The notes under the pieces: generated by a model | Databases searched by the model: none | The model's input: only the letters and a program-made list of their open reading frames with translations | What the model was told of the DNA's origin: nothing | Assembly (NCBI RefSeq): GCF_036924595.1 | Contig: NZ_JAZHRV010000001.1 | Span: 868,001 to 932,000 of the forward strand | Direction of reading: 5' to 3' | Length of the DNA stretch: 64,000 nt | From: Bradyrhizobium algeriense | GTDB lineage: Bacteria > Pseudomonadota > Alphaproteobacteria > Rhizobiales > Xanthobacteraceae | Translations under genes and position numbers: made by a program | Part shown: one piece after another, positions 8,491 to 35,529 of the stretch | Layout of the letters: the number at the start of each line of letters is the position of its first letter | Numbering within the stretch: position 1 is the first letter of the stretch

Positions 8491-8585
8491 GTGATGCGCG
8501 CCCCGGCAAGTGCGAGGTAAGTTCCGGCCTGAGCGCGGAAGCGTCCGCAATAGCAACAAGAACAGCAAACGCAAGGAGAGGCCGA

Positions 8586-30722: not shown

Positions 30723-31449
30723 TCAGCGCCCGCACAGCATGCCGGTGGGATCGCTGCCGTCATCGACGATGACGGGGGCCGCGTCCGCATATTGCGTCTT
30801 GCTGCAAAGCCCTGCCGCCGCGCTACAGGTTGCGGCAAACGTCCAGGGCGGAGTGTTGGTCTTTTTGATCGTCGATCTTCCGCCCGCCCGAGGTGATGAT
30901 GGCGGTGTCGCCGGGGCGGGTGAGCTGGATGCATTCAAAGCTGATCGTGCAGACCGAGGCTGCGCCTTCCTGCAGATTGACGATGGTCCGGCCGCGCTGT
31001 GACAGGATATCGAGCGTGGTGCCGCGCACGCCGATGGTCGCCAGCGGCGTCGTGATCTTGTAGGCGGCCTTGTCCGAATGGCCGGTGACGAAACGAAACG
31101 CGCCCGACGTCATGCGCACCGCGACTTCGCGATAATGATGCTCATCGTCGAAAACGGTGCGGTCGAACTTGAGCGTCGCGTTGGGTCCGAGCGAGAGGTT
31201 GGTGCTGTCGGCCATCACCAGACGCGTTGCGCTGTCGATCCCGGTGCGCACGGTTTCGTCACGAACCAGTCCATCGCCGACCTTGATCTGAATGGTCGAA
31301 GGTCCGGCAACGCGGAGTACTTCATTCTTGACGACAGCCGCTTCGCCGACGCGCGTTTGCGCATACGCGGGAGCAGCCAACGCAGTTACCAGGCCAGCAG
31401 TTACCAAGCCAATGGCAAATAGCAAACGAAAGCAGTTACAGAAATTCAT
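30723..31449 (-). pseudogene. FecR-domain periplasmic protein gene with a frameshift
   Basis: From ATG 31449 the frame gives a signal peptide (…FAIGLVTAGLVTALAAPAYA) and a FecR domain (AAVVKNEVLRVAG, LVMADSTNLSLGPNATLKFD, TPLATIGVRGTTLDI). After 'ITSGGRK' near 30885 this frame reads only 18 more codons to a stop at 30823. The +1 frame instead continues as STIKKTNTPPWTFAATC… and 'DDGSDPTGMLCGR' to TGA at 30723-30725, two bases before the barrel gene ATG. The two frames together look like one complete protein carrying one extra base. If the shift is a sequencing error, the gene is intact. Confidence 0.65.
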
Positions 31450-31650
31450 TTCAAAGCCGATCGATTTATCCCGACATCGCACCGGATCGCGCGCGCGTGC
31501 GATGTGGCAGAATTATCACTTGCGTGGCCTACTCGCCCGTCGGTTAGTGATGGCGGAATCGAAATGCGTTCAACGCGATGGACATAGAAATCTGGAGCCA
31601 TCACACTCAATTTTGCCGCAATGTCATTTTGTCCCTGATTCAGTGTCAGA

Positions 31651-32961
31651 TTGTCCGTGAAGCAAGCAACTCCATTACATTCTGTTCTGCCCGCTTCGAT
31701 GATGCGCACGGGCGTCATCGCGGCAGTCATTTTTGTTCTCGCGCATTTCGCGATGCTGATCGGCGTCACCACGCCGGAGAAATTCTATTTCGACGAGGTG
31801 CATTACGTGCCGGCTGCGCGGCAGATGCTCGAGCCGGTGATGCGAGAGCCGATGCTCAACTCAATGCATCCGCCGCTGGCCAAGCAGTTCATCGCGCTGT
31901 CGATCCACTTGTTCGGCGACGAGCCGCTGGGCTGGCGCTATCCGGGTGTCCTGTTCGGATCGCTCGCGATCGTCGCGGTGTATCTCTGCGGCCTGGCGCT
32001 GTTCGCGGCGCAAGGGCCGGCCATCGCCGCGAGCCTGCTCGCCTTTTTCAACCAGATGCTGTTCGTGCAATCGCGGATCGCGATGCTGGATATTTTCGCG
32101 CTCACCTTCAGCCTGTTCGCGATCGCGGCGTTCATCCATGGCTTTCGAAAGCAGCGGCCGCATCTGTGGTTCGCGCTTGCCGGGATCGGCTTCGGCCTGT
32201 CAACCGCTTGCAAATGGAGCGGGCTGTTCGTGCTCGCGGTCTGCATCGTCATCGTCGCCGTGATCCGCCTGATGCAAGGCTGGCGCACCCAATTCGCCGA
32301 CGCCCGGCCCGATGACTGGTACCGGCCCGATCTTTGGCCTGGCTTCAAGGCCTGGCATTTCACGGCGTGCTTCATTTTGATTCCGGCCGCCGTCTATCTC
32401 GCGACATTCATTCCGCTGTACGGATTTTCCGTCCCGGATATTCTGGAAGCGCAACGGCGGATCTTTGGCGATAACACCACGACCGCGATCGCGGGCCACA
32501 CCTATATGAGTTCATGGCCGTCCTGGCCGTTCCTGGTGCGCCCGGTCTGGTATCTCTTCGACAAGATCGGCGACGACCGGATCGCCGCCGTGGTCTTCCT
32601 CGGCAATCCGCTGATCCTGTGGCCGGCGCTGATTGCGGTCGCGATCTGCCTGCGCGACTGGATCGTGACGCGGCGCCTGGACGCGTTCCTCGTGCTGGCG
32701 TTCTACTTCGGTCCCTATCTCGCATGGGCGCTGCTGCCGCGAACGTTAGGGTTTATTTACTATTACCTGCCGGCCGCGACTTCGGCGAGCTTTGCGCTGG
32801 TGTATGCCTTGAAACGCGGCAGCATGCCGGGATGGCTGCTATGGGCTTATGTTGCGATCGGTTTTGCCGGTTTTGTCCTAATGTTGCCGATATCGGCCGC
32901 GTTCATAGCTACCTCGATGGCGACGTTCAGCCGCCTGATGATCTTCCAGAATTGGATCTGA
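31651..32961 (+). CDS. PMT-family (GT39) glycosyltransferase, membrane protein
   Basis: About 436 residues with 9-11 hydrophobic helices. The first periplasmic loop holds the acidic pair FYFDEVHYVPAARQ, the catalytic D-E of dolichyl/undecaprenyl-phosphate-sugar transferases, and 'SMHPPLAKQFIA' follows as in PMT proteins. It would move a sugar from a lipid-phosphate donor to a protein or glycolipid acceptor on the periplasmic side. No ATG lies at the start; TTG 31651 is called, with GTG 31657 and ATG 31699 as alternatives. It stands alone between divergent FecR and the kinase gene. Confidence 0.82.
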   Translation: MSVKQATPLHSVLPASMMRTGVIAAVIFVLAHFAMLIGVTTPEKFYFDEVHYVPAARQMLEPVMREPMLNSMHPPLAKQFIALSIHLFGDEPLGWRYPGVLFGSLAIVAVYLCGLALFAAQGPAIAASLLAFFNQMLFVQSRIAMLDIFALTFSLFAIAAFIHGFRKQRPHLWFALAGIGFGLSTACKWSGLFVLAVCIVIVAVIRLMQGWRTQFADARPDDWYRPDLWPGFKAWHFTACFILIPAAVYLATFIPLYGFSVPDILEAQRRIFGDNTTTAIAGHTYMSSWPSWPFLVRPVWYLFDKIGDDRIAAVVFLGNPLILWPALIAVAICLRDWIVTRRLDAFLVLAFYFGPYLAWALLPRTLGFIYYYLPAATSASFALVYALKRGSMPGWLLWAYVAIGFAGFVLMLPISAAFIATSMATFSRLMIFQNWI

Positions 32962-33082: not shown

Positions 33083-34713
33083 ATGTGGGCCTTCTTCGAA
33101 CGTCTGCTCGATTCATCGATGTTCGCACCGCACGGAATATGCCTGCTGTGGGAACCGCAACTGATCTGGCTGCACGTTGCGTCGGATGTCGTCATTGCTT
33201 CTGCCTATTTTTCTATTCCCGTGGCGCTGTCGATCTTCGTCTCGAAGCGCCGCGACGTCGATTTCGGATGGGTGTTCTGGGCGTTCGCGCTCTTCATCAT
33301 GGCGTGCGGTGTTGGACACGTGATGTCGATCGTCACGCTTTGGTATCCGGTCTACGGCATCGAAGGCATCGTCAAGGCGATGACGGCCGCGGCGTCGATC
33401 GTGACGGCGGCGATGTTGTGGCCGCTGTTGCCGAAGGTGCTGGCGTTGCCCTCGCCGTCGCAGCTTCGTGCCGCTGAAGTGGCCCTGGCGCAGGAAGGCA
33501 TGTACCGGCGCGAAGCCGAAGACATGGTTCGGCAGTCGCAGAAGATGGAAGCGATCGGACAATTGACCGGCGGCGTGGCGCACGATTTCAACAATCTGCT
33601 CACGATCATCAGCGGCAATCTCGAGATCGCCGATCGCTGCCTGCAGACATGGAGCGAGGCCGCGCGCGAGCGGTTGATGCGGGTGATCGCCAACGCCGCG
33701 AACGGCGCGCAGCGCGCGGCGATGCTGACGCAGCGCTTGCTGGCGTTTGCGCGAAGGCAGCCGCTCGATCCCAAACTGACCAATGTCGGTCAATTGATCG
33801 GCGGCATGTCGGATTTCTTCAGACGTACGCTGGGCGAGAACGTCGATCTCGAGGTCGTGGAGGGAGCCGGCCTATGGCAGATCGAGGTCGACCCTAGCCA
33901 GTTGGAAGCGGCGATTCTCAATCTTGTCGTCAACGCCAAGGACGCCATGAACGCCAGTAATGCCAAAATCTCGGGCCGATGGCCAACAGCGGCAAGCTGA
34001 AGATCGAAACCAGCAACGTTTCCGTCGACGAGGGCTATCGGCAACAGAACGCAGGCGTGCCGGCCGGGCAATATGTATTGATCGTGGTGAGCGATACCGG
34101 TTCTGGAATGCCGCGGGAAGTCCAGGAGAAAGCGTTCGATCCGTTTTTCACGACCAAGCAACCGGGGCAGGGCACCGGCCTCGGATTGAGCCAGGTCTAT
34201 GGCTTCGTCAAGCAATCCGGCGGCGAGATCAAGATATACAGCAAGGTCGGGCACGGAACCACAATCAGGATCTACCTGCCGCGCGCCGCTACCGCTCCCG
34301 AGACCGTCGGACAGAGCGAGGCGCCTCTGGTCGGCAGTTCGGGGAGCGAGACCGTCCTGGTCGTCGAGGACGAATACGATGTGAGGTCGTATCTGGTCGA
34401 GACGCTAAAGGACCTGAACTACCGGGTTCGCGAGGCGGCGAACGGGGCGGCCGCACTGGCACAGTTCGACGCCAATCCGTTCCGGATCGATCTGTTGCTG
34501 ACCGACATCGTGATGCCTGGCCTGAACGGCCGCGAGCTGGCCGATCAACTGCATCATCGCCAATCCGGCCTGAGGGTCTTGTTCATGACCGGGTATTCGC
34601 GGGATGCGATCGTGCATCAGGGCCGGCTGGATGCCGGCGTGTCACTGCTGCAGAAGCCCGTTACCCAGGCCTTGCTGGCGGCAAGGATCCGGGAAATTCT
34701 CGACAAGTCGTAG
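33083..34713 (+). pseudogene. Hybrid histidine kinase with ETR1-like ethylene-binding membrane domain, frame broken
   Basis: From ATG 33083 (GGA 9 bases upstream): three membrane helices, residues 28-110, resembling the plant ethylene receptor. Asp35, Tyr42, Ile45, Pro46, Ile72, Cys75 and His79 match ETR1 Asp25, Tyr32, Ile35, Pro36, Ile62, Cys65 and His69 at a constant offset of ten. Next come a HisKA domain with phospho-His in GGVAHDFNNLL and the N-box NLVVNAKDAM. Here 32 extra bases (33947-33978, between two ATGs) shift the frame to a stop at 34000. The next frame continues with MANSGKLKIETSN, G-boxes DTGSGMP and [12 protein letters not shown], and a receiver domain (LLLTDIVMPG) to 34713. 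Without the 32 bases the gene is one open frame. Confidence 0.8.
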
Positions 34714-34808: not shown

Positions 34809-35441
34809 TCACTTGGACGCGGTCTTGGTGTCCATGTTGACGACCTGAACGCGGCGGTTGGCCGGGTCCATCGGCGCATTCGCATCCTTCGGCTTGGTCT
34901 TGCCGTAACCGACGGTCACGAGATTGGAGCCGGTGATGCCGTACTTCTCGGTCAGGTACTTCTTGATCGTGTCGGCGCGGCGCTCGGACAGATCCTGGTT
35001 ATACGCCTCGCCGCCGATCGCGTCGGTATGACCGGCAACCACGAAGGTCGAACCCTTCAGGCTCGCATCGGAGAGCGCCTTGCCGAGTTCCTGCACGGCG
35101 CTCACCGAGCCCTTGCTGATGTCGGCCGAGTTGTAGTCGAACTGGATTTCGAGATCGATCTTCGGCTTGCTCGCGGCAAGTTCCGCAATCTCCTGGCGCT
35201 CGCCGAGCGACAGCGACCGCGTCTTGCGGTTGCGCAGCGTGTTGACGAAGCCGGCTTCCTTGGCCTGTACGGCGGCGTCCACCGGCTGCTGCGGGCCGGT
35301 CGAAAGGCCGCGGGTCACGCCCGGCTTCGGCTTCAGGGCGTCCAGGATTTTATCGGCCGAGACGGTGTCGCCGGCGACAGCCAGGCCCGCTGTCATCGAC
35401 AGCGCGGCGCTGATAGTCATGATCGAAAGGTAGCGGGTCAT
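34809..35441 (-). CDS. OmpA-family peptidoglycan-associated outer-membrane protein
   Basis: 210 residues. Signal peptide (…TISAALSMTAGLAVAG), a linker of about 80 residues, and a C-terminal OmpA domain with 'GHTDAIGGEAYNQDLSERRA', the block that holds diaminopimelate of peptidoglycan, and 'ANRRVQVVNM'. It tethers the envelope to the cell wall; there is no N-terminal barrel, so it is a soluble or periplasmic form. ATG 35441 has GAGGA seven bases ahead. A CRP-type palindrome lies 89 bases upstream and a hairpin terminator follows. Confidence 0.87.
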   Translation of the reverse strand: MTRYLSIMTISAALSMTAGLAVAGDTVSADKILDALKPKPGVTRGLSTGPQQPVDAAVQAKEAGFVNTLRNRKTRSLSLGERQEIAELAASKPKIDLEIQFDYNSADISKGSVSAVQELGKALSDASLKGSTFVVAGHTDAIGGEAYNQDLSERRADTIKKYLTEKYGITGSNLVTVGYGKTKPKDANAPMDPANRRVQVVNMDTKTASK

Positions 35442-35529
35442 TGTCTTAATCCTCACTGTTAACGCCCTGCAAAGCTGGCGTGCATGACGTTTTGATGCTG
35501 CGAAGATAGGACGGGTTCAAAATGGGCAA

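Follow-up and report, generated by a model that had tools for sequence, protein, structure and literature searches.

Does the membrane sensor gene that begins at position 33083 of a 64,000-nucleotide stretch of the Bradyrhizobium algeriense genome (this whole stretch is called the window here) still encode an ethylene receptor? Ethylene restrains nodulation, and the wider question behind this gene is whether rhizobia sense the hormone directly. According to PMC11819568, studies of ethylene between plants and microbes have mostly dealt with the plant side; ethylene receptors of proteobacteria, predicted in many plant-associated species, are already known (PMC11819568; PMC7700396). As judged from its sequence, the window gene is a new member of this known group, and a broken one. 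We think it likely that it is a bacterial ETR1-type hybrid kinase of the AzoEtr1 type, with orthologues in other Bradyrhizobium, broken by a recent frameshift and with its ethylene signalling probably lost.

A preliminary description of the segment 33083..33412 had called it an ethylene-receptor-type membrane domain and named seven residues shared with the plant receptor ETR1. Both points hold: all seven (Asp35, Tyr42, Ile45, Pro46, Ile72, Cys75 and His79) were found at their positions in the translation from 33083 (110 residues), and a profile search assigned the sensor of the first open reading frame, ORF1, to Pfam ETR1_N (PF25487; 133.2 bits vs. a cut-off of 27, E 4.2e-39). Translation probably starts at the ATG at 33083: orthologues begin MWAFFERLLD, and in one of them, L005, the frame stays open upstream of this point for no more than four codons. 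The ethylene-binding-type domain covers residues 27-122 (33161..33448, plus strand); the span first described stops within the sensor and the gene continues past it. Three N-terminal membrane helices are predicted, the hydropathy peaks agreeing with the helices of an AlphaFold2 model (25-55, 62-85 and 91-121; mean pLDDT 74.6, moderate confidence). In the PDB, Foldseek found nothing at E 0.001 or better, and a sequence search of solved chains was empty up to E 10; the sensor fold is a predicted one.

The binding-site residues lie in four short stretches of the plus strand: the Asp35 codon (33185..33187), Tyr42-Pro46 with Tyr42, Ile45 and Pro46 (33206..33220), Ile72-His79 with Ile72, Cys75 and His79 (33296..33319), and Lys98 in helix 3 (33374..33376), an eighth residue that is kept in the window copy according to the alignment. 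We take the first seven to be the counterparts of ETR1 Asp25, Tyr32, Ile35, Pro36, Ile62, Cys65 and His69, and Lys98 to align with ETR1 Lys91. The offset to ETR1, described earlier as ten throughout, is indeed ten across helices 1 and 2 but shifts in the loop between helices 2 and 3 and is seven at Lys98. The copper ligands in ETR1 are Cys65 and His69, as stated in PMC13012798 and PMC6586836. In AzoEtr1, where the lysine is also Lys98, modelling predicted that the Asp and the Lys are bonded and that the Lys takes part in output, according to PMC11819568. By profile and residues, the window segment is an ETR1-type sensor that would bind copper and ethylene.

AzoEtr1 of Azospirillum brasilense Sp7 is presented as a proven ethylene receptor in PLoS Genet 2025 (PMC11819568). 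We took its sequence from plasmid NZ_CP012915.1 (locus L139, 525 aa). Both proteins are alphaproteobacterial, their ETR1_N domains align without gaps at 54% identity, and D35, C75, H79 and K98 have the same numbers in the two. AzoEtr1 differs in that it includes a PAS domain and works with a response regulator encoded by an adjacent gene, as described in PMC11819568, whereas the Bradyrhizobium protein has its own receiver attached and is broken in the window copy. No response regulator gene was seen adjoining the receptor in the window, where the Pfam-matched neighbours are PMT, OmpA, FecR, glyoxalase and AlkZ-like genes.

In a domain tree of 38 rows, with the plant row on a long branch and four cyanobacterial domains in place of Slr1212, the window gene fell among alphaproteobacteria, AzoEtr1 included (94/89, a little short of the values that the tree program marks as firm). 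The alignment and tree that had been called for place the gene with AzoEtr1 and apart from plants and cyanobacteria. Plant ETR1 and cyanobacterial receptors such as SynEtr1 (Slr1212) share the three-helix sensor and the binding residues but form their own branch of the tree, to which the window gene does not belong. A plant-derived gene was considered and rejected, since the tree puts the gene among alphaproteobacteria.

All eight residues occur in 273 of the 291 rows of a census that consists mostly of near relatives, counts some genomes twice and includes the window and ETR1. At the window's locus all 17 intact copies have the full set, as do 47 of 47 rows of a 659-residue type (A2; some genomes twice). 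An ATPase-less type, to which we return below, has it in 16 of 17 rows (some genomes twice), P0135 carrying Ser in place of Cys; among more distant members of the order it is complete in 18 of 24 rows, and among degenerate paralogues in 0 of 6. On this census the residue match is the norm of the family and marks no particular closeness to plant ETR1. The A2 kinases of Bradyrhizobium (about 659 aa), encoded elsewhere in the genome, share the eight residues but are longer, have a PAS-like segment by eye and, in those fetched, lie beside neither of the marker genes of the window's locus. Among 243 Bradyrhizobium genomes with a completeness of 95% or more, 170 have a match to the domain at E 1e-10, a figure that also counts degenerate paralogues and the window's own match; PF25487 was found in 33 of 297 genomes of the order at E 1e-8 vs. 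0 of 14 control genomes. Of 35 named loci with the domain, 34 are from Bradyrhizobium or Bradyrhizobiaceae and one is from a cyanobacterium (Okeania); in Bradyrhizobium algeriense RST91 the domain is 100% identical to that of the window. As it is the residues that point to binding, the domain could also bind copper and sense another signal, be it the metal itself, oxygen or a different small alkene. We regard this as quite improbable, given that all eight residues match AzoEtr1, reported to bind ethylene through this domain (PMC11819568).

Downstream of the sensor the gene has the parts of a hybrid kinase, in two frames of the plus strand. ORF1 (33083..34000, 305 aa) comprises ETR1_N and the HisKA (DHp) domain (33557..33760), with the phospho-acceptor His167 in GGVAHDFNN at 33581-33583; it then enters the ATPase domain, of which it holds the N-box, and ends early. 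ORF2 (33979..34713), in another frame, encodes what is left of HATPase_c, with the G1, F and G2 boxes, and a receiver, the Response_reg domain occupying 34354..34692 with its putative phospho-Asp codon at 34504-34506. A frame break near 33,975 (zone 33970..33980) thus parts the sensor, DHp and N-box from the remainder of the ATPase domain and the receiver. The kinase core of the Bradyrhizobium protein scores best against the PRK13557 and CckA models, both below their cut-offs.

In relatives the gene is a single frame of about 540 residues, and a Pfam scan of one of them (L003) found ETR1_N, HisKA, HATPase_c and Response_reg in one protein. DHp, ATPase and receiver, which make a hybrid kinase when in one frame, are so arranged in the relatives and not in the window copy. 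All four relatives compared (G019, G031, G023 and G024) read through at the position of the window's break, the stretch just before it differing in length among them, and a genome of the same species (G334) has an intact copy of 543 aa. The G334 locus is identical over 600 bases to the B. algeriense record, in keeping with the species of the window. A programmed frameshift was rejected, as no good slippery site was seen by eye and the relatives are in one frame. The comparison also lists one possible frame break in G031, two in G024 and, on the evidence of one relative, a further one near 8,500 in the window.

Compared with G334, the sensor of the window copy differs by 9 synonymous changes and no nonsynonymous one; the respective counts are 10 and 2 for residues 126-295 and 2 and 2 for ORF2. 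Neither piece of the gene has decayed with respect to G334, which suggests that the break is young. The synonymous rate is uneven along the gene, however (0.105 vs. 0.011, respectively, in the sensor and ORF2), which hints at recombination and makes the dating unsure. The near identity of ORF2 to the same-species copy and the intactness of that copy would also fit an error of sequencing or assembly, in which case the strain would have an ordinary intact ETR1-type hybrid kinase. A second break bears on this: the FecR-domain gene at 30726-31482 (minus strand), about 3 kb upstream of the receptor break, is also frame-broken, the proteins of all four relatives mapping to it in two pieces and three of them passing a stricter test, which leaves some probability to an assembly error in the receptor gene too. 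The genome, on the other hand, is a single contig of 8.10 Mb (100% complete, 0.18% contamination), there is by eye no long homopolymer near the break, and two other strains have different breaks of the gene, one of them a frame break that might itself be an error. We give an artefact some weight, though clearly less than a genuine mutation.

By analogy with AzoEtr1 and ETR1 we infer how an intact copy would work. In the dimer, Cys75 and His79 of helix 2 would hold a Cu(I) ion to which ethylene binds, and Asp35 and Lys98 would link this binding to the helices; autophosphorylation of His167 would change as a result, and with it the transfer to the attached receiver. Because the frameshift falls in the middle of the ATP-binding domain, the most that the window gene can make is a membrane sensor joined to part of a kinase, and ethylene signalling by way of this gene has probably been lost in the strain. 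One could imagine that both frames yield protein and that the two products assemble into a split kinase: ORF1 and ORF2 overlap by 22 bases, ORF2 has an ATG at 33979 and it holds the G boxes and the receiver. The cut falls inside one folded ATPase domain, however, that ATG corresponds to an internal Met in the relatives, no clear ribosome site is seen by eye, and the four changes of ORF2 vs. the same-species copy are too few to show selection. We consider a split kinase very improbable.

Is the window copy an isolated accident? The locus can be followed by two markers, a PMT-family glycosyltransferase gene upstream (31651..32961, plus strand) and an OmpA-family gene downstream (34809..35456, minus strand), both identified by Pfam and synteny. 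In a sample of 23 fetched Bradyrhizobium genomes with at least one marker neighbour (a likely member, G487, is left out), the frame is intact in 15 (G334, G019, G031, G480, G023, G463, G024, G446, G001, G514, G508, G521, G503, G412 and G411). Three copies are broken, namely that of the window, that of G403, with a frame break in the ATPase domain, and that of G473, with a large deletion in the kinase; the remaining five (G441, G345, G468, G357 and G418) have no ATPase domain. In a 42-row tree, the neighbour of each broken copy is an intact copy, with a support of 99/91 in the case of the window, 100/90 in that of G403 and no more than 90/72 in that of G473; the ten ATPase-less rows form one clade (100/100). 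This makes at least four catalytic losses or breaks at this locus. In G473 (L112; an exact DNA match to L079, Bradyrhizobium sp. 190) the deletion is out of frame and leaves a lone ETR1_N with a meaningless tail.

Breaks appeared to be in excess at the locus, with 3 of 18 copies broken vs. 2 of 112 elsewhere (67-76% identity; Fisher p 0.019). The 112 other rows were counted by hand, and the two are open frames of under 530 residues (G401 and G360). With three rows of other identity added, two broken (L134 and L135) and one intact (L120), the figures become 3 of 18 vs. 4 of 115 (p 0.052). It should be noted that both tests are post hoc and ignore shared descent, and that most of the other rows were judged by how long their open frame is. 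As the p value weakens in this way, we treat the excess as unsure and base no claim on it. A simple link between nodulation and loss of the receptor was examined and rejected: nodA is above the cut-off in 5/5 ATPase-less genomes, 2/2 other broken ones, 0/1 for the window and 8/15 intact ones. Bradyrhizobium manausense SZCCT0118 (G391) has a second ETR1_N gene (L106/L135) that is broken inside the sensor, with 99 residues open and neither marker gene found beside it; its genome also has a copy of the 659-residue type (L084).

The ATPase-less proteins have about 354-370 residues and combine PF25487, PF00512 and PF00072. Three of them were scanned for HATPase_c and gave no match even at E 10. A protein search with one ATPase-less protein as query matched 967 proteins at E 1e-60; among the 120 matches listed, 12 (P0125-P0136) are without PF02518, and some of these twelve are named response regulator (Bradyrhizobium sp. 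Leo121, BRP22 and USDA 10063, and B. cenepequi). The HDFNN box of the DHp and the receiver Asp and Lys are kept in all 17 ATPase-less rows, none of which shows the N-box or G2-box pattern looked for; short stretches ahead of the H-box are missing as well. These proteins are encoded at the window's locus (PMT match in 5/5 genomes, OmpA in 4/5), and nodA is above the cut-off in all five genomes. In four of the five they are the sole ETR1_N protein (E 1e-4), G468 having an extra short degenerate one. A full-length model has a low mean pLDDT (56), but its helices and strands follow the order expected of three membrane helices, a DHp hairpin and a receiver. For five ATPase-less copies, pairwise dN/dS averaged 0.073 in the sensor, 0.158 in the linker plus DHp and 0.125 in the receiver (vs. 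0.050, 0.061 and 0.072, respectively, in ten intact copies, whose ATPase domain gave 0.145). These low values mark the ATPase-less genes as maintained by purifying selection.

We propose that the ATPase-less clade sets the phosphorylation of its own receiver, or of a partner, by phosphotransfer or dephosphorylation. More tentatively, the locus may keep its ethylene sensor while shedding the catalytic domain repeatedly; the nodA-positive ATPase-less clade would then be the fixed end-point, with a kinase-less ethylene receptor, and the window copy a gene either at the first stage of this path or dying. The truncated window product could, by the same token, be useful without a kinase, as a phosphatase, a phosphotransfer relay or a partner of another kinase, like the ETR1_N-DHp-REC relatives. 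The selection on sensor, linker plus DHp and receiver in the ATPase-less clade, the recurrence of this make-up among the listed matches and the repeated catalytic losses at one locus all speak for such a use. The window lesion is recent, however, and unlike the natural form ORF1 keeps the N-box and has lost the receiver; no partner is known, and four of the five ATPase-less genomes have no other ETR1_N protein. We find a useful truncated product unlikely, and loss of signalling through the window gene remains our preferred reading.

The comparison we draw for the ATPase-less proteins is with DivL, which we take to be the repurposed pseudokinase of Caulobacter. DivL keeps its catalytic domain and is not an ethylene sensor, whereas in the ATPase-less Bradyrhizobium relatives the whole catalytic domain is absent. 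The alphaproteobacterial pseudokinase described in PMC4211667 sets a precedent, as it resembles a kinase but does not employ its catalytic part for catalysis. The ATPase-less architecture appears to be a new part, as far as the literature searched shows: among the papers listed, titles and the openings of abstracts mentioned no Bradyrhizobium or ATPase-less bacterial ethylene receptor, and papers outside this search may list Bradyrhizobium genes.

The only other ETR1_N protein of the host genome (L002; C1:629182-629574, minus strand, outside the window) is unbroken and has kinase and receiver domains by Pfam, but five residues of the binding site (Tyr, Ile, Pro, Ile and His) are replaced in the alignment. 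Because L002 lacks the site, the full binding site of this genome is found only in the broken gene. Ethylene sensing of the kind suggested in the preliminary description is backed by the type of the domain and by AzoEtr1, the nearest tested relative, which binds ethylene, but it finds no support in this strain, where the gene with the full site has a frameshift and the paralogue lacks the site. Across 14 copies of the degenerate paralogue in the genus, Tyr, Pro and His are absent in every one and Cys is kept in 13; one copy (L149) is truncated. Its dN/dS (11 of the 14 copies) is 0.36 in the sensor vs. 0.13 in the rest of the protein, and the sensor perhaps serves a different ligand.

A search of the host genome for nodA gave no match at E 0.001, and one for nifH gave none above the cut-off and two weak matches below it. 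The same searches in five relatives found both genes above the cut-off in four (G334 included) and neither in G031. The sensing of nodule ethylene that had been suggested is thus unlikely in this strain, although its genome, despite this result, does have an ACC deaminase gene (C1:7581726-7582730).

The full site in all intact copies of the locus and in all A2 rows makes direct ethylene sensing testable in a genus of legume symbionts, for which the natural broken, degenerate and ATPase-less variants are ready controls. The ATPase-less clade would show whether a bacterial ethylene receptor works without kinase activity; if it does, it would parallel plant receptors that signal without histidine-kinase activity. 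Outside the genus, on plasmid p2 of Novosphingobium sp. ES2-1, an ETR1_N-type kinase gene (L152) overlaps a response regulator gene, recalling the arrangement of AzoEtr1; this plasmid is typed as conjugative, and a Cas9 gene lies near the kinase.
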